41,685 bases of DNA from Chloroflexota bacterium. Lineage in GTDB: Bacteria > Chloroflexota > Anaerolineae > Promineifilales > Promineifilaceae. The DNA lies in contig JAGNBF010000069.1 in NCBI GenBank assembly GCA_018004935.1, positions 1 to 41,685 of the forward strand, read 5' to 3'. This document shows positions 33,722 through 41,685 of this stretch, in pieces. Each line of letters opens with the position of its first letter. The first letter of the stretch is position 1. Below the pieces are notes generated by a model, which saw nothing but the letters and a program-made list of their open reading frames with translations, was not told the origin of the DNA and did not search any database. The position numbers were made by a program, and so were the translations under genes.

Positions 33722-34150
33722 TCATTCCTCTTGGTGAGCATTCGCTCATGGGGAACTCCTACGAAAATAAGTTGCGAGTGGCGAGTTCGCGAGTGGCGAG
33801 TTTGCGAGTGGCGAGTGAATGCTTACTCGCCCACTCGCTACTCGCATACTCACTATTTTCATTCCTCTTGGTGAGCGACATGCTCATGGGGAACTCCTGC
33901 GAAAATAAGTTGCGAGTGGCGAGTTTGCGAGTGGCGAGTGAATGCTTACTCGCCCACTCGCTACTCGCATACTCACTATTTTCATTCCTCTTGGTGAGCG
34001 ACATGCTCATGGGGAACTCCTGCGAAAATAAGTTGCGAGTGGCGAGTTTGCGAGTGGCGAGTGAATGCTTACTCGCCCACTCGCTACTCGCATACTCACT
34101 ATTTTCATTCCTCTTGGTGTGCCAAAGGCACATGGGGAACCGCCAGGAAA
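33722..34150. repeat. 123-bp tandem repeat array built of an R1 segment and a GCGAGTG hairpin
   Basis: Two identical-looking 123-bp units (from 33851 and 33974), one longer diverged unit before them and a partial one after. Each unit carries CTCTTGGTGAGC...GCTCATGGGGAACTCC, the inverse of the first part of R1, then TTGCGAGTGGCGAGT words and their complement ACTCGCCCACTCGCTACTCG. The open frames across it simply follow the repeat period (123 = 3 x 41) and are not genes. Confidence 0.8.
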
Positions 34151-34262
34151 ATAAGACACGGTGAGGGAGTGAAAGGACGAGACGGCGAAAAAAAGTCGCC
34201 GTGTCACCGCGTTGTCACCTCTTCCGTGGGGTCAAGTGTAACCGAGAACGGTAAGAAAATGA

Positions 34263-35325: not shown

Positions 35326-37110
35326 ATGCAGTTGTCTTCTGTGCGGAAACTGTTGTTTCCTATCGTGTTACCCGTTTTGGCTTTGTATATTTTTCTGGGT
35401 GGTGTCCTGATCCCCAACCCGGTGGCGGCGGATCCATCCCCTAACCACAGTCCGGCGAATAACCCCTTACAACCTACCGAAGCGATTACGCTGACGCTTT
35501 TGGGAACCTATACCAATATCACGGCCACCTTTGGCGAGGGTGCGTCGGAAATTGTGTCGTATGACCCGGTGAGCCAGACGTTGTATGTGGTAAATGGGTT
35601 CGCGGCCGCGATTGATATCCTCGACATCAGTGACCCCACCCTGCCCACCTTGCTCGGCCAGATTGACGTGACCCCCTACGGGGCCAATGTGAACAGTGTG
35701 GCGGTGCAGAATGGTGTGGTCGCGGCCGCGGTCGAAGCCGATCCTCTGCAAAATCCCGGCAAACTGGTGTTCTTTGATCGGGCAGGCAACTACCTCAACG
35801 ATCTTACCATTGGTGCCTTACCCGATATGGTCACATTTAGCCCTGATGGACAAACGGTTCTGGTAGCCAATGAAGGCGAACCCAACAGCGATTATGATAA
35901 CGACCCGGAAGGTTCCGTCACTCTGGTGGACATCTCCGGGGGAGTGGGGTCTGCTACCATTACCAATATTGGCTTTACCGATTTTAATGTTGGTGGCCCC
36001 CGCCACGGTGAACTGCCAACCGCTGTGCGTATCTACGGCCCCAACGCCACCGTCGCTCAGGACATCGAGCCGGAATATATTGCTGTTTCCCCTGACTCCA
36101 GCACCGCTTATGTGACGTTACAAGAAAACAATGCTCTGGCGATCATTGATATAGACACCGCCTATATCACCGCCATTGTGGCTCTGGGTTTCAAAAATCA
36201 TGAGCTGGGTGGGGCGGGCCTGGATGCCAGCGACCGGGACAACATCATCAACATCGCCAACTGGCCGGTGTATGGTATGTATCAGCCGGACTCTATTGCC
36301 GCCTATGAGCAGGGTGGTAACTTGTATCTGGTTACATCCAACGAAGGGGATACCCGCGATTATGATGCCTATGGCGAAGAATCCCGTGTCAGTGGTTTAG
36401 ACCTGGACCCCGGTGTATTTACCGATGCGGCCACCTTACAACTGCCGGAAAACCTGGGCCGTTTGACGGTGACAACGGCCAACGGCGATACGGACGGGGA
36501 TGATGATTTTGACGCCCTGTATGTTCCCGGTGCACGTTCTTTCTCTATCTGGTCTGCCACCGGTCAACTGGTTTATGACAGCGGGGATGCTCTGGAGCAG
36601 ATTACCGCCACTGTCTATCCGGATGATTTCAACAGCAATAACGATGAAAACAACAGCTTTGACAATCGCAGTGATAACAAAGGGCCGGAACCGGAAGCCC
36701 TGGCCCTGGGGCGGATTTATGATCGGGTGTATGCCTTTGTCGGTTTGGAGCGGATGGGCGGCATCATGGTGTTTGATGTGACCGATCCGATGGCTCCCGA
36801 ATTTGTGCAATACGTGAATAACCGCGATTTTGCGGGCGACCCGGAAGCGGGAACTGCCGGTGATCTGGGGCCGGAAGGGCTGTACTACATTCAAGGGAAT
36901 GTCAGCCCTAATGGTGCGCCCATTCTGGCTGTTGCCAATGAAATCAGTGGCTCCACCACCCTCTATGGTGTTCAAGTTCCTGCGCCCACCGATGTCAACC
37001 TGACTGCTTTCACGGGTATGCAGGTGTTGGATGGAATGATGGTTCTGGCGGCTGGGGTGGGACTGTTGGGGCTGTTGGGGCTGTGGCGGATTTTGCGGCC
37101 GCGAAGATAA
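35326..37110 (+). CDS. Choice-of-anchor I family secreted beta-propeller protein
   Basis: A 594-residue exported protein: signal peptide (residues about 8-35), then a beta-propeller of the choice-of-anchor I type. Hallmarks are FSPDGQTVLVANEGEPNSDY, DIEPEYIAVSPDSSTAYVTL with QENNALAIID, QPDSIAAYEQGGNLYLVTSN with EGDTRDY, and GPEPEALALGRIYDRVYAFV. The C-terminus (LDGMMVLAAGVGLLGLLGL then WRILRPRR) is a single helix with a basic tail, as in sorted or membrane-anchored surface proteins. Members are sometimes annotated as phytase- or alkaline phosphatase-like; activity here is unknown, but the Pho-box-like array upstream would fit a phosphate-related role. ATG 35326 has GGAGGG at good spacing; ATG 35314 is less likely. 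Confidence 0.88.
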   Translation: MQLSSVRKLLFPIVLPVLALYIFLGGVLIPNPVAADPSPNHSPANNPLQPTEAITLTLLGTYTNITATFGEGASEIVSYDPVSQTLYVVNGFAAAIDILDISDPTLPTLLGQIDVTPYGANVNSVAVQNGVVAAAVEADPLQNPGKLVFFDRAGNYLNDLTIGALPDMVTFSPDGQTVLVANEGEPNSDYDNDPEGSVTLVDISGGVGSATITNIGFTDFNVGGPRHGELPTAVRIYGPNATVAQDIEPEYIAVSPDSSTAYVTLQENNALAIIDIDTAYITAIVALGFKNHELGGAGLDASDRDNIINIANWPVYGMYQPDSIAAYEQGGNLYLVTSNEGDTRDYDAYGEESRVSGLDLDPGVFTDAATLQLPENLGRLTVTTANGDTDGDDDFDALYVPGARSFSIWSATGQLVYDSGDALEQITATVYPDDFNSNNDENNSFDNRSDNKGPEPEALALGRIYDRVYAFVGLERMGGIMVFDVTDPMAPEFVQYVNNRDFAGDPEAGTAGDLGPEGLYYIQGNVSPNGAPILAVANEISGSTTLYGVQVPAPTDVNLTAFTGMQVLDGMMVLAAGVGLLGLLGLWRILRPRR

Positions 37111-37137
37111 TGAATTAGTGATTGGTTATTGGTGAGG

Positions 37138-37173
37138 AACGCGGCCGCAAGGAGAGTTGCGGCCGCGTTTTTT
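37138..37173 (+). terminator. Intrinsic terminator whose stem is made of two GCGGCCGC octamers
   Basis: AACGCGGCCGCAA (37138-37150), loop GGAGAG, exact complement (37157-37169), then a run of six T. It begins 28 bp after the choice-of-anchor I stop. A textbook Rho-independent terminator, with stem built on the window's over-represented palindrome. Confidence 0.9.
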
Positions 37174-37201
37174 ATTGTAACTATTCAGGTGTCACAACTT
37201 A

Positions 37202-37368
37202 TTCCCACGCTCGGCGTGGGAATTCCCTCTGGGACGCTCTGCATCCTACACGGCGCTGAGCGTGAAATGAGGATGTGAAACCGCTGACCCTCACCCCCGG
37301 CCCCTCTCCCGCTTCGGGAGAGGGGAGTTAGTTCCCTCTCCCTGGGGAGAGGGTTAGGGTGAGGGGTT
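37202..37368. repeat. Two dispersed-type hairpins
   Basis: TTCCCACGC...GCGTGGGAA (37202-37222), and a longer structure with CCCTCACCCCCGG and CCCCTCTCCC arms pairing with GGGAGAGGGTTAGGGTGAGG (37286-37368). The second type is common between genes of many bacteria. TTCCCACCAGTTCCC words follow to 37432. Confidence 0.55.
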
Positions 37369-37437
37369 GTATAGATACTTTTTATTTCCCTAAGTTCCTC
37401 AGAGTTCCCACCAGTTCCCTTCCCCCTTTTCTAACTC

Positions 37438-37501
37438 TTAACCAACCACAAGAAAAATATTAACAATCACTTTAACAGGGTTTAACACCAGGCCGTTATC
37501 T
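37438..37501 (+). promoter_or_regulatory. Second Pho-box-like array with -10 box, ahead of the glycan cluster
   Basis: TTAACC at 37438, then TTAACA at 37460, 37472 and 37482: the steps are 22, 12 and 10 bp, again on an 11-bp period. TTATCT at 37496 is 14 bp after the last word, the same distance as in the array at 34629. The first gene of the cluster starts at 37639, leaving a leader of about 130 bases that contains iterated AGTTCC words. Confidence 0.55.
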
Positions 37502-37638
37502 TGATTTCTGGTAAATAAGAACGTGATGCGTGATACGTAATGCATTGGTTCCAGAACTATTTGCCCTGAAAAAAAACAAGCGTCAAGGTGAACCAAGTTC
37601 CCAGAGTTCCTAGAATTCCTACAAGTTCCCAACCCGTT

Positions 37639-38646
37639 ATGAAACAAAAAATCCTCTTCATCGGTGGTTCGCTCAACCAGACAACCCAAATGCACAGCAT
37701 CGCCCGGCATTTAGAGGGGGAGTATGACTGCTATTTTTCCCCCATGTATGCCGATGGCCTTCTGCGCCGCCTGGCCCAAGCCGGTTATCTCGACTTCACC
37801 ATCATGGGCGGCCGCTTCCGCCAACAAACCGAAGCGTATCTTAACGAGCATAACTTAAAGGTGGATTACCGGGGTGAGGCCCATGATTACGCCCTGGTGC
37901 TGATGGGAACCGACCTCATCGTGCCGAGGAATGTCCGCGGCCGCAAATTCATCCTCGTCCAGGAAGGCATGACCGACCCGGAAAACCTGGCCTACTATCT
38001 GGTCAAATGGCTTGGTTTGCCCCGTTACCTCGCCAGCACCTCCACCAACGGCCTCTCCAACGCCTACGACCTGTTCTGCGTCGCTTCGGCAGGATACCGC
38101 GACCTCTTCATCCGCAAAGGAGTGCCAGCGGAGAAAATCGCCGTCACCGGCATTCCCAACTACGACAACGCCGCCCGCCTGCTCCACAACGATTTTCCCT
38201 TCCACGACTACGTTCTGGTAGCCACCTCCGATGCGCGGGAGACGGGTAAGTGGGACAACCGCAAAAAATTCATCCGCCACTGCCTGGACGTTGCCAGAGG
38301 GCGTCAGCTACTCTTCAAGCTCCATCCCAACGAAAAACGGGAGCGAGCCATGCGGGAAATTCGCGCTCAGGCCTCGGATGCCCTCATCTTCACCGACAGC
38401 CCGATTGATCCGATGATCGCCAACTGCGCCACCCTCATCACCCAATATTCGACGGTTGTCTACACCGGCATTGCCCTGGGCAAAGAAGTCCACTCCTACT
38501 TCGATGTGAATATGCTCAAACGGCTGGCCCCCATTCAAAACGGGGGTACATCAGGAATGCACATCGCGGCCGCATGCCGCACCCTACTGACAAGTAAACA
38601 GTGGCTAGTGAATAGTGAACTGTCACCTTTCGCTATCACAGCCTAA
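37639..38646 (+). CDS. CDP-glycerol phosphotransferase/glycosyltransferase-like protein
   Basis: A 335-residue cytoplasmic protein with a GT-B/TagF-like fold. The N-terminal KILFIGGSLNQTTQMHSIAR is a Rossmann start; the C-terminal half has LLFKLHPNEKRERAMREI and ANCATLITQYSTVVYTGIAL with GKEVHSYFD, the HPxxx and D/TQYS-type motifs by which CDP-glycerol glycerophosphotransferases and UDP-GlcNAc 2-epimerase-like proteins bind the nucleotide sugar. It probably transfers or processes the product of the downstream cytidylyltransferase. The last 18 codons or so (SKQWLVNSELSPFAITA) are encoded by a hairpin arm and are unlikely to be native. No ribosome site precedes ATG 37639. First gene of a four-gene cluster. 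Confidence 0.75.
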   Translation: MKQKILFIGGSLNQTTQMHSIARHLEGEYDCYFSPMYADGLLRRLAQAGYLDFTIMGGRFRQQTEAYLNEHNLKVDYRGEAHDYALVLMGTDLIVPRNVRGRKFILVQEGMTDPENLAYYLVKWLGLPRYLASTSTNGLSNAYDLFCVASAGYRDLFIRKGVPAEKIAVTGIPNYDNAARLLHNDFPFHDYVLVATSDARETGKWDNRKKFIRHCLDVARGRQLLFKLHPNEKRERAMREIRAQASDALIFTDSPIDPMIANCATLITQYSTVVYTGIALGKEVHSYFDVNMLKRLAPIQNGGTSGMHIAAACRTLLTSKQWLVNSELSPFAITA

Positions 38647-38674
38647 ATACTGTTCACTGGTCACTGTTCACTAC
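38593..38674. repeat. Word-iterated hairpin (AGTGAACAGT) overlapping the 3' end of the preceding gene
   Basis: AACAGTGGCTAGTGAATAGT then GAACTGT pairs with ACTGTTCACTGGTCACTGTT then CACTA. The left arm is read as the C-terminal codons of the upstream gene. Confidence 0.65.
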
Positions 38675-38684
38675 CCACTCCTTT

Positions 38685-39500
38685 ATGCGCCTTCTCACCG
38701 TCATCCAGGCCCGCATGAATTCCAGCCGCTTACCGGGGAAGGTACTGCGGGCGGTGTTGTACGAACCGCTCCTACTGCACCAGATTCGGCGCGTCCAGGC
38801 TTCGCGCTACGTAGATGCCCTCGTCGTCGCCACCACCACCGACCCCGCCGATGATCCCATCGTAGACCTGTGTATCAGCGAAGAAATCCCCTGCTTTCGC
38901 GGCCACCCCACCGACCTGCTCGACCGCCATTATCGGGCCGCCCTCTGGTTCAAAGCTGAAGCCATCGCCAAAATCCCGTCTGATTGCCCCTTGATCGATC
39001 CCGATGTCATCAGCCGGGTCCTGCGCTTTTATCGGGAAAACGCCGACCGCTACGACTATGTGAGCAACCTGCACCCCGCCAGCTACCCCGATGGCAACGA
39101 TGTCGAAGTGATGTCGTTTGCCGCCTTACAAACGGCCTGGCGTACTGCCACCCATCCCTGGGAACGGGAACACACCACCCCCTACCTCTGGGACAACCCG
39201 GATCGCTTTCGCATAGGCAATATCGTCTGGGAAACCGGGCTAGATCATTCACTTAGCCACCGGTGGACGCTTGATTACGAAGCCGACTATGCTTTCATCA
39301 AAGAGGTGTACGAGGCTCTTTATCCACAAAATCGCCTGTTTAGCCTGAACGACATTCTGGCCCTGTTGGAACGTTGTCCCGACATCGCCGCCATCAACCG
39401 ACACCTGGTTGGCGTCAACTGGTATCGCCACCACCTGGGGGAGTTGAAGACGGTGGGGGCTGGGCAGATGAGACTGGAGACTGAGAGACTGAGAGATTAA
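38685..39500 (+). CDS. SpsF-like cytidylyltransferase family protein
   Basis: A 271-residue nucleotidyltransferase of the SpsF/CMP-KDO synthetase superfamily. The nucleotide-binding start is VIQARMNSSRLPGKVL, followed by DALVVATTTDPADDPIVDLC and the metal-binding SDCPLIDPDVI. HPWEREHTTPYLWDNPDRF with HRWTLDYEADY is typical of the SpsF group found in surface polysaccharide clusters. It is expected to activate a sugar or sugar-alcohol with CTP. The final dozen residues (MRLETERLRD) come from a hairpin of GAGACTGA words, so the native end is probably near residue 258. There is no Shine-Dalgarno sequence (ACCCACTCCTTT precedes the ATG). Confidence 0.87.
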   Translation: MRLLTVIQARMNSSRLPGKVLRAVLYEPLLLHQIRRVQASRYVDALVVATTTDPADDPIVDLCISEEIPCFRGHPTDLLDRHYRAALWFKAEAIAKIPSDCPLIDPDVISRVLRFYRENADRYDYVSNLHPASYPDGNDVEVMSFAALQTAWRTATHPWEREHTTPYLWDNPDRFRIGNIVWETGLDHSLSHRWTLDYEADYAFIKEVYEALYPQNRLFSLNDILALLERCPDIAAINRHLVGVNWYRHHLGELKTVGAGQMRLETERLRD

Positions 39501-39545
39501 GAGACTGGTCAGTCTCTCAGTCTCTTAGTCATCTCAGTCTCTTCC
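39471..39545. repeat. Word-iterated hairpin (GAGACTGA)
   Basis: GAGACTGGAGACTGAGAGAC then TGAGAGATTAAGAGACTG, paired with CAGTCTCTCAGTCTCTTAGT then CATCTCAGTCTCTT. It spans the stop codon of the cytidylyltransferase and ends six bases before the next ATG. Confidence 0.75.
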
Positions 39546-39551
39546 CAAAAT

Positions 39552-40409
39552 ATGACCAACCTCAACCATTCCCACCTCGAATCTACCGCCCTGCGCGTGC
39601 GCGAGCATATTATCCGGCTGGCGACGAATGGGGGCTGTTTTATCGGTGCATCCCTCTCCTGTGCTGATCTGATGGTGTATCTGTACCATCATTTTTTGAA
39701 TGTCAGCCAGGAAACGCTGAACGATCCCGACCGGGATTATTTTTTCCTCTCCAAAGGGCATGATGTCCCGGCGTTGTATGGCACGTTTGTGGAATTGGGC
39801 TGGCTGGAGCGGGGGCGGTTGAAAAACCACCTCAAAACGAGCGACAGTATCTACTGGCATCCTAACCGGGCCGTTCCGGGCGTTGAATTTCATGCCGGAT
39901 CATTGGGGCATCTGCTCTCGGTGTCGGTGGGGGTGGCGCTGGATAGCAAAATCCGCGGCCGCACCAATCGCATCGTTGTCATTGTGGGGGATGGCGAACT
40001 GAACGAGGGGTCTAACTGGGAAGCGTGCCTGGTCGCGGCCGCGTACCACCTGGATAACCTGGTCATCGTCGTAGACCGCAACCAGTTCCAGGCCAACGTC
40101 CCCACCGAAAGCCTCATCCCTCTGGAACCGCTTGAAGATAAGTTTGCCGCCTTTGGTTGCCAGGTGATGCGCGTGGACGGCCATGATTTCACCGAACTCC
40201 ATGACACCTTCTGCCAGATACCGTTCCGAACCGGCAAACCCAATGTGATCATCGCCGACACAGTACGCGGCCGCGGCCTGCCCAGTATCGAAAACCGTGC
40301 CGACCGTTGGTTCTGCAACTTCAACTCCGCCGAAATCGCCGCCCTGCTGGAAGAACTGCACGGCCTGACTGGGGCAGAGTTGGCGTCGGAACCGTTGCTG
40401 GTCAGGTGA
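39552..40409 (+). CDS. Transketolase-like protein, N-terminal (ThDP-binding) subunit
   Basis: A 285-residue half transketolase. It binds the thiamine diphosphate pyrophosphate through VIVGDGELNEGSNWEACLVA ending in NLVIVVDRNQFQ (the GDG...N motif), with the substrate-side FLSKGHDVPALYGTF and HAGSLGHLLSVSVGVAL. It must pair with the next gene product, which carries the pyrimidine-binding half. Two-subunit transketolases occur in archaea and some bacteria, and as dedicated enzymes in surface sugar or antibiotic pathways. With SpsF- and TagF-like neighbours, a role in moving a two-carbon ketol unit to make an unusual ketose or branched sugar is likely, but inferred. No ribosome site. Confidence 0.9.
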   Translation: MTNLNHSHLESTALRVREHIIRLATNGGCFIGASLSCADLMVYLYHHFLNVSQETLNDPDRDYFFLSKGHDVPALYGTFVELGWLERGRLKNHLKTSDSIYWHPNRAVPGVEFHAGSLGHLLSVSVGVALDSKIRGRTNRIVVIVGDGELNEGSNWEACLVAAAYHLDNLVIVVDRNQFQANVPTESLIPLEPLEDKFAAFGCQVMRVDGHDFTELHDTFCQIPFRTGKPNVIIADTVRGRGLPSIENRADRWFCNFNSAEIAALLEELHGLTGAELASEPLLVR

Positions 40410-40414
40410 AGAAG

Positions 40415-40503
40415 TATATTGGTGTATTGGTGTATTAGTTATTGATACACCAATACACCAATACACCAATACACCAATACACCAATACACCAATACACCA
40501 ATC
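40415..40503. repeat. Word-iterated hairpin (TTGGTGTA / AATACACC)
   Basis: TATTGGTGTATTGGTGTATT, then AGTTATTGATACACC and six or more further copies of AATACACC. It fills the whole gap between the two transketolase genes; the right arm is longer than the left, so the word has expanded on one side. Confidence 0.8.
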
Positions 40504-40509
40504 TCTCCT

Positions 40510-41412
40510 ATGACCTACGAACAAACCCTCCTCAACCTCGCCTTGACCGATGACCGTTATGTGGTGATGACGGCGGAAAACCGGGCCGCCATTCGTAATT
40601 TACCGGCCCACCTGGGGAACCGGTTTATTGATACCGGCATTACCGAACAGACGATGATTGGCGCGGCCGCGGGGCTGGCGTTATGCGGCCGCATTCCCAT
40701 TACCCACGCCCTCGCCACCTTCCTCACCATGCGGGCCTTTGAGTTCATCCGCACCGATGTCGGCCTGCCTAACCTGCCGGTCAAGCTGGTGGGCGGTGTG
40801 CCCGGCTTCCTCTCCGATGGCAACGGCCCCACCCACCAGGCATTGGAAGATATTTCGCTCATGCGGGGCATTCCCAACATGCACATCTTCTGCCCCGCCG
40901 ACGAACAAGACATGCTCATCGGTTTGCGCCATGTGCTGTCCAGCCCGCACCCGACCTACATCCGTTATAACAACCAGCCCGCCATCTACCAGCACGACCC
41001 GGCCTTTGCTATTGGCAAAGCGGAGCAGATTGGTGAGGGGACAGATGTCGCCATTTTGGTGTATGGCTTGCTTTTCAAACAGGCCCATCAGGCCCGCAAT
41101 TTGCTCAAGGCGCAGGGAATTTCCACCCGTTTGATCAACCTGCGGATGGTGAAACCGATTGATGAGGCGGTGATTTTGGACGCGGCCGCGAACACCCGCC
41201 TGCTCGTTACCGTAGAAGACCATTTCCTGACCGGTGGCCTTTACTCCATCGTCAGCGAACTGCTCATCAAACACCGCCAGATGGCCCACGTCCTGCCCCT
41301 GGCCCTGGAAGACCGCTGGTTCAAACCCGCCCTGCTCAATGATGTCCTCAGCTACGAAGGTTTTACCGGCACCCAGATTGCCCGCAAGATAACTGAGAGA
41401 CTAAAAGAATAG
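40510..41412 (+). CDS. Transketolase-like protein, C-terminal subunit
   Basis: A 300-residue partner of the preceding gene product, with the pyrimidine-binding domain and transketolase C-terminal domain. The catalytic glutamate is in DTGITEQTMIGAAAGLAL (the EQ motif that activates the cofactor). LPVKLVGGVPGFLSDGNGPT with HQALEDISLMRGIPNM is the usual cofactor-side loop, and GTDVAILVYGLLFKQAHQAR begins the C-terminal domain. Four GCGGCCGC octamers are near or inside conserved motifs, including two 22 bp apart around the EQ motif region. No Shine-Dalgarno (CAATCTCTCCT precedes the ATG). It ends the cluster. Confidence 0.9.
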   Translation: MTYEQTLLNLALTDDRYVVMTAENRAAIRNLPAHLGNRFIDTGITEQTMIGAAAGLALCGRIPITHALATFLTMRAFEFIRTDVGLPNLPVKLVGGVPGFLSDGNGPTHQALEDISLMRGIPNMHIFCPADEQDMLIGLRHVLSSPHPTYIRYNNQPAIYQHDPAFAIGKAEQIGEGTDVAILVYGLLFKQAHQARNLLKAQGISTRLINLRMVKPIDEAVILDAAANTRLLVTVEDHFLTGGLYSIVSELLIKHRQMAHVLPLALEDRWFKPALLNDVLSYEGFTGTQIARKITERLKE

Positions 41413-41473
41413 GATGGAGCGACGCAGGGACACGGCCACGCGGCGATTATTCGCCCCATCACCCCTTCTCATT

Positions 41474-41622
41474 TCCCAGGAGTTCCCCATGGGCCTTTGG
41501 CACACCAAGAGGGATGAAAATCTGTAGGACGATTTGGTAAATCGTCCGGGCGATTTGCCAAATCGCCCTACATTTTCGTAGGAGACAACATGAACGGGGT
41601 TCACCAGAGGTGATGAAAATTT
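41474..41622 (+). repeat. Composite repeat R1, full copy followed by a second first-half copy
   Basis: CAGGAGTTCCCCATGGGCC, CTTTGGCACACCAAGAGGG, the two hairpins (GGACGATTTGGTAAATCGTC and GGGCGATTTGCCAAATCGCC) and CTACATTTTCGTAGGAG, then GACAACATGAACGGGGTTCA with CCAGAGGTGATGAAAAT, which begins another unit. The ATG after AGGAG opens only a seven-codon frame. Confidence 0.8.
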
Positions 41623-41685
41623 ATCCGCAGATTACGCAGATTATTTTCACCCTTTATCCGTGTTTCTTCCCATCCGTGTTTCTTC
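41623..41685. repeat. Start of a TATCCGTGTTTC word-iterated region at the window edge
   Basis: CCGCAGATTACGCAGATTA and TTTATCCGTGTTTCTTCCCA then TCCGTGTTTC. Same words as at 6583, 15983, 32700 and 33652. It is cut by the window end. Confidence 0.5.

Follow-up and report, generated by a model that had tools for sequence, protein, structure and literature searches.

We propose that four genes at the end of a Chloroflexota contig are the front part of an operon that probably makes and transfers a 2-keto-3-deoxy sugar acid activated with cytidine monophosphate (CMP), an ulosonic acid which probably carries an amino group and is destined for an envelope glycan or glycolipid. The stretch of DNA that was analysed, here called the window, is the whole of contig JAGNBF010000069.1 (C37 in our numbering), 41,685 nucleotides read on the forward strand. 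The four genes lie on that strand at 37639-41412. GT (37639-38646, 335 amino acids (aa) from the ATG at 37639) is a GT-B fold protein and putative CMP-ulosonate transferase, CT (38685-39500, 271 aa, PF02348) is a cytidylyltransferase of the SpsF/KdsB/NeuA type, TKN (39552-40409, 285 aa, PF00456) is the N-terminal half of a split transketolase-like enzyme and binds thiamine diphosphate (ThDP), and TKC (40510-41412, 300 aa, PF02779 and PF02780) is the C-terminal half of the same enzyme. The initial annotation of the window had taken these genes to be a compact pathway of exactly four. The genes themselves are real, with intact open reading frames (ORFs) all in one direction and with the cytidylyltransferase and split transketolase families confirmed. 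The stand-alone four-gene pathway had to be rejected, since the unit continues with four more core genes on a second contig of the genome and in relatives.

The window ends 273 bp past TKC, and its last 127 bp (41559-41685) overlap perfectly with the end of contig C192 (locus L063) of the same genome. C192 carries a gene that is 74% identical to the NeuB of the relative used as the query. Past the overlap C192 encodes, in the direction of the four window genes, an aminotransferase of class III (AT), then an SDR, a HAD phosphatase of the KdsC type, a NeuB-type synthase, a GNAT and a metallophosphoesterase. We infer the join of the two contigs rather than observe it, because the overlap is part of a dispersed repeat, of which contig C210 has a third copy that is 99% identical. 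The gene order of the joined contigs is matched in the relatives L043, L045 and L046; L044 has the same order too, but with one additional ORF between TKN and CT. The contig end would then have cut the operon after its 5' half, the four genes of the window. The repeat that makes up the end of the window has 111 matches across the genome.

A genome-wide scan with a TKN profile found 393 relatives, and the counts given here rest on the best 80 of the 393, so that the spread that we see is biased to close relatives of the window. The complete order GT-CT-TKN-TKC-AT-SDR-HAD-NeuB is found in 54 of the 80 loci. The first four genes, for which the initial annotation had suggested a search for a conserved set, keep the order GT-CT-TKN-TKC in 72 loci. 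In the 52 loci where all eight ORFs are complete, the intergenic gaps have medians between -4 and 45 bp. This conserved set is far beyond chance. Eleven of the 26 loci without the complete order stop at contig ends, within 0.5 kb of their last gene. Among the others GT was not detected in L070, and in four loci, all of them from Flavobacteriales, unrelated genes come after TKN (10 kb of sequence lies beyond TKN in L078, L080 and L114, and 0.6 kb in L089). TKC is located elsewhere in three of these four Flavobacteriales genomes, adjoining AT in one of them. The 80 loci are spread over Bacteroidota, Ignavibacteriota, Chlorobiota, Calditrichota, KSB1, Myxococcota (Minicystis rosea), Bdellovibrionota and Chloroflexota, with the single loci of Calditrichota, KSB1 and Bdellovibrionota all among the incomplete ones. 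All eight genes are also present on a plasmid of the gammaproteobacterium Methylomagnum ishizawai, at 54-69% identity and with HAD placed after NeuB.

The gene families of the whole unit indicate the type of product. A NeuB-type synthase, a KdsC-type phosphatase and a PF02348 cytidylyltransferase are the hallmark of CMP-activated 2-keto-3-deoxy acids, and their presence together makes a CMP-ulosonate the most likely product, rather than a polyol phosphate or a branched ketose. Since the unit includes a NeuB-type phosphoenolpyruvate (PEP) synthase and a KdsC-type phosphatase, a 2-keto-3-deoxy acid takes the place of the products first suggested for the four genes (a ketose, a branched sugar or a polyol-phosphate polymer). 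The CTP activation and the transfer step proposed at the same time are both likely. CT scores 78.2 bits against PF02348 (cut-off 22.6), and its nearest solved relative is 6oew (7.9e-30). By the curated models CT is not the KdsB of a Kdo pathway, with scores far below the cut-offs (51 bits against 255 for the best KdsB model and 27 against 155 for TIGR00466); CT is also far under the PseF cut-off. The NeuB of L043 scores 251 bits against PF03102, and E22, H27, K50, H212, E231 and H233, which we take to be the residues with metal and PEP roles, are kept in all 69 aligned rows. These alignments were made from 85 loci, plus the window for its own four genes, after removal of rows that fell outside set length limits or had no complete ORF. 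This left 84 rows for TKN, 76 for TKC, 72 for AT, 70 for SDR, 69 for NeuB, 44 for HAD, 79 for GT and 84 for CT; L046 and L134 have identical sequences and are both counted in the residue tallies. The active-site residues of the other enzymes are equally constant: the Lys of AT (72/72), the Ser, Tyr and Lys of SDR (70/70) and the DxD motif of HAD (44/44). The closest family to AT is that of the glutamate-1-semialdehyde aminomutases; among proteins of solved structure its relatives include aminoglycoside C-6' aminotransferases. HAD and NeuB form one ORF of 477 aa in L081, and the two are fused in Mucilaginibacter, where a single locus was examined for this.

The same families could be taken to make an ordinary nonulosonic acid (Kdn or sialic acid) by the 9-phosphate route, with the ThDP pair, AT and SDR simply modifying or supplying the precursor of a known end sugar. 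The HAD of L046 scores 163 bits against the Kdn-9-phosphate phosphatase model, whose cut-off is 180, and the NeuB of the unit is nearest to the NeuB/SpsE families. In the relative G030 a close NeuB, 66% identical, lies directly behind a fused CMP-synthetase/KdsC-type phosphatase; this neighbourhood also supports a phosphorylated intermediate. We nevertheless consider an ordinary nonulosonic acid unlikely, given that 54 of the 80 loci have AT, SDR and the transketolase halves placed between CT and HAD-NeuB and that CT is so far below the PseF and KdsB cut-offs. To our knowledge the Kdn route requires no aminotransferase, SDR or transketolase. The architecture of NeuB points the same way. No SAF (antifreeze-like) C-terminal domain was found in the four unit NeuBs scanned with Pfam (L043, L081, L106 and L163), which gave PF03102 only, plus HAD in the fused protein, and TIGR03569 covers positions 1-277 of the 329 in the NeuB of this genome (L063). 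The solved NeuB-type protein 6ncs is similar in length to the NeuB of the unit, and its chain of 290 aa is too short for the C-terminal domain; 6oew and 6ncs are presumably both Leptospira structural-genomics entries. CMP-nonulosonic acid biosynthesis (of sialic, legionaminic and pseudaminic acid and Kdn) resembles the unit in that a NeuB-family synthase, a PF02348 enzyme, a phosphatase of the KdsC/Kdn-9-P type and a transferase are found in one cluster. It typically has a nucleotide-hexosamine front end, whereas here a split ThDP enzyme, a class-III AT and an SDR would stand in its place. There is no UDP-N-acetylglucosamine (UDP-GlcNAc) dehydratase, 2-epimerase and acetyltransferase front end in the conserved eight-gene unit (the rest of the genomes was not searched), and GT has the fold of a 2-epimerase.

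The ThDP pair matches transketolase families but departs from ordinary transketolases in its active site. TKN scores 95.4 bits against PF00456 (cut-off 22), and TKC is above the cut-off for both PF02779 and PF02780. The ThDP motif GDG..N is retained, with D147 and N177 of TKN in 84/84 rows, as are the catalytic Glu of TKC (E46, 76/76 rows) and its catalytic His (H109). Two other histidines of the active site are lost throughout the family. The column of the SGHP histidine has Phe (F30) in 84/84 rows, against His in 31 and Tyr in 2 of 33 comparison sequences, and the column of the WHG histidine has Trp-Phe (W253/F254) in 84/84 rows, against His in 33/33. The comparison set of 33 loci consists of the two full-length and two other split transketolases of this genome and of 29 loci from a sample of the phylum, six of which (L020-L025) are nearly alike at the histidine sites. 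We assume that the two sites correspond to H26 and H261 of the E. coli transketolase. In transketolase structures these two histidines contact the C3 hydroxyl of the donor and the carbonyl of the acceptor, and their replacement means that the substrate or reaction of TKN/TKC probably differs from that of an ordinary transketolase. Among solved structures both halves come closest to the split-chain transketolase of Carboxydothermus hydrogenoformans (6yak, 6yaj), which is likewise made of two subunits but keeps the SGHP histidine that is Phe in the TKN family; TKN also has no His at the WH column.

From its domain make-up, that of a split transketolase, the pair could be viewed as a spare transketolase of central metabolism. 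This is extremely improbable and was rejected, since the two histidines are lost and the pair is tied to sugar-acid genes. TKN/TKC is also not the only transketolase of the genome, because two full-length and two other split ones are present. The view of the initial annotation that the genes belong to a dedicated pathway outside central metabolism is thereby borne out. The other split pairs of the genome, at 7890-10010 of L049 and 9136-11251 of L050, are outside the TKN/TKC family.

GT scores 13.2 bits against PF04464 (TagF/Glyphos_transf), below the cut-off of 22.1, with the GT of the relative L046 barely above it at 22.7. Against PF02350 (UDP-GlcNAc 2-epimerase) it scores 14.3 bits, below the cut-off of 30.6. 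Its AlphaFold model (pLDDT 92.7, pTM 0.89) has a GT-B fold, and the best structural matches of the model are UDP-GlcNAc 2-epimerases (3ot5_C with a Z of 18.7 and a root-mean-square deviation of 3.8 over 287 residues), among them NeuC (5zlr_A, Z 18.5). The model also matches TagF (3l7k_B, Z 15.3, deviation 4.9 over 279 residues) and polysialyltransferase (Z about 14), and Foldseek gives in addition a CMP-bound capsule polymerase. The label of a TagF-like transferase given earlier is thus correct as far as the fold goes (Z about 15), but it does not hold at the level of PF04464, and epimerases are closer (Z about 18). The H and P of an HP motif (KLHPNE) are invariant in 55 aligned rows, and this is presumably the motif common to sialyl- and Kdo-transferases. 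A CMP-ulosonate transferase would be the most economical reading of GT, and a sugar epimerase may be the alternative. The weak PF04464 similarity and the GT-B fold near TagF and TarL could also be taken as the sign of an independent teichoic-acid-like or polyol-phosphate pathway of four genes. We rejected such a polymer as highly improbable, since the GT of the window is under the PF04464 cut-off and the four genes occur across phyla in one unit with NeuB, a KdsC-type phosphatase, AT and SDR.

The genes downstream of NeuB suggest that the acceptor is a lipid or that the product is lipid-linked. A gene of the fatty-acid-hydroxylase family is found there in 54 of the 61 testable loci, a GNAT in 4 (Chloroflexota by their record names) and neither of the two in 3; a SMR-type gene is also present in 36 of the 61. 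The best NCBIfam match of the hydroxylase-family gene of L106 is the ornithine-lipid hydroxylase OlsE, at 108 bits against a cut-off of 475. On the Methylomagnum plasmid a lysophospholipid transporter, a PF13444 GNAT and a PF01553 acyltransferase come after the unit. Among plasmid homologs of the Chloroflexota GNAT, some are annotated as dATP pyrophosphohydrolase, a name that the Caulobacter ceramide synthase probably also carries. It is possible, if somewhat doubtful, that the ulosonate or its amine is itself a lipid head group, joined to a fatty chain by N-acylation or a glycosidic bond, which would give a glycolipid comparable to ornithine lipids or ceramides. The hydroxylase-family gene directly past NeuB, the GNAT and the three plasmid genes are consistent with this. 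However, the accessory genes vary by lineage and may be mere neighbours, and three of the 61 loci have neither the hydroxylase-family gene nor the GNAT. Past the phosphoesterase on C192 (L063 6906-10151) there are a family-4 glycosyltransferase and a cytochrome P450, possibly for lipid or sugar tailoring.

The eight families can be arranged into a plausible route to a CMP-ulosonate. Starting from a sugar phosphate, the SDR would oxidise one hydroxyl to a ketone, which the class-III AT would convert to an amine. TKN/TKC would then shift a two-carbon unit to give an aldose phosphate of the right length, and the changes in its active site hint at a donor or acceptor that is out of the ordinary. 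The synthase, NeuB-type by its family, would add PEP to the aldehyde of this predicted substrate. The KdsC-type HAD would take off the phosphate and CT would join the ulosonate to CMP, as expected from their families. Finally the GT-B protein would transfer the ulosonate, perhaps to a lipid.

The nearest worked-out logic may be that of the aminoshikimate start of 3-amino-5-hydroxybenzoic acid (AHBA) biosynthesis, where RifL, RifK and a transketolase (orf15) are followed by PEP condensation by RifH (PMC8788734). The likeness would be in the succession of oxidation, transamination, transketolase and PEP condensation on the resulting aldose phosphate, a comparison of logic and not of proteins. 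In that pathway an aminoDAHP synthase uses PEP and cyclisation follows, whereas the enzyme of the unit is of the NeuB type and cytidylylation is the probable fate of its product; the unit would end in a CMP-sugar and not in an aromatic ring. The O-antigen cluster of Legionella pneumophila serogroup 6/12 also combines NeuB and an acylneuraminate cytidylyltransferase with a similar class-III aminotransferase, one like glutamate-1-semialdehyde aminomutase (PMC3694923). A transketolase is not mentioned in the accessible part of that paper, which does describe PseG, HisF/HisH and a DegT aminotransferase.

We regard the operon as a variant of the CMP-ulosonate (nonulosonate) pathway that has probably not been described before; no description of this gene set was found among open papers, with subscription papers mostly outside the search. 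Neighbours that point to a known pathway had been named beforehand as evidence against a new one, and those that we see do point to a known class of pathway, but we found this variant nowhere in the literature searched. We put forward more tentatively that the product is a CMP-activated amino-ulosonic acid outside the known nonulosonates, with its chain shaped by the histidine-less split ThDP enzyme, and that it is attached to a membrane lipid both in bacteria that have an outer membrane and in those that lack one. If our proposal is true, a sugar-acid pathway that is widespread has escaped notice behind gene labels such as transketolase, DXP-synthase domain, class-III aminotransferase and glycosyltransferase, which are the ones given on the Methylomagnum plasmid. 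It would be a CMP-ulosonate route that bypasses nucleotide hexosamines, with a ThDP enzyme whose active site has been rebuilt. It would also provide a new surface or lipid marker common to Chloroflexota and to Bacteroidota such as Mucilaginibacter and Hymenobacter, which could be tested genetically in the latter.

Several observations weigh against the proposal that the operon makes and transfers a CMP-ulosonate. The join of C37 and C192 sits in a repeat with a nearly identical third copy. The resemblance of GT to CMP- or CDP-dependent transferases is no closer than that to UDP-GlcNAc 2-epimerases. The NeuB has no C-terminal domain, and in sialic acid synthases this domain caps the sugar site. 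With the two histidines missing, it is not certain that TKN/TKC carries out a two-carbon ketol transfer, and we infer the order of the SDR, AT and transketolase steps by analogy. Some loci also depart from the complete set: 6 of the 80 have NeuB but no HAD detected, HAD is found upstream, as a weaker match, in 4 of the 80 (among them L072, where GT was also not detected), and G360, one of the four Flavobacteriales genomes, gave no TKC within the limit set for the search.

The unit is common in some lineages and sparse close to the window. TKN is present at E <= 1e-90 in 72 of 120 genomes of the genus of Mucilaginibacter straminoryzae, and CT at an identity of at least 60% in 4 of 59 relatives. 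In 300 other sampled genomes of the phylum no TKN match was better than 8e-68. The next-best matches of this sample are 33-48% identical and look like generic split transketolases; 29 such loci (2.6 to 3.8 kb) contain only the two halves and no other gene of the unit, with a weak SDR match in two. Six peptide patterns gave no CT relative in viral contigs, and phage records gave only transketolase halves, at no more than 41% identity in the 10 of 14 matches listed. In a quick tree with long outgroup branches, from which we draw no conclusion on gene transfer, the Chloroflexota rows are not in one group. A relative of the same class (L066, 4103-10167) has an ORF of 642 aa that matches TKN (40%) a few genes from homologs of SDR (48%), HAD (40%) and NeuB (40%), and this might be a remote variant built on the logic of the unit.

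Some features of the window remain to be reported. An in-frame GTG at 37588 lies upstream of the ATG of GT at 37639, and the ATG is preferred because the ORFs of relatives such as L045 and L118 open a few residues before the conserved KKILFI; the start codons in relatives were picked by script as those nearest to the starts of the window and are no proof of those starts. No Rfam family was found in 36000-41685. The intergenic gaps at 38649-38679, 39470-39543, 40417-40502 and 41540-41685 contain short tandem repeats, such as an 8-bp unit in 7.2 perfect copies at 40445-40502. Further upstream, at 33784-34155, a 123-bp unit is present three times with a 96% match, and the ORFs listed there on both strands consist of repeat. 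The ORF upstream of GT in the window encodes a choice-of-anchor I protein. In Promineifilum-like relatives a PIG-L type de-N-acetylase gene is located upstream of GT instead (L045 11623-12423, L087 7317-8057 and L098 2634-3374); PF02585 was tested in L087 only, and the L045 and L098 proteins begin alike.

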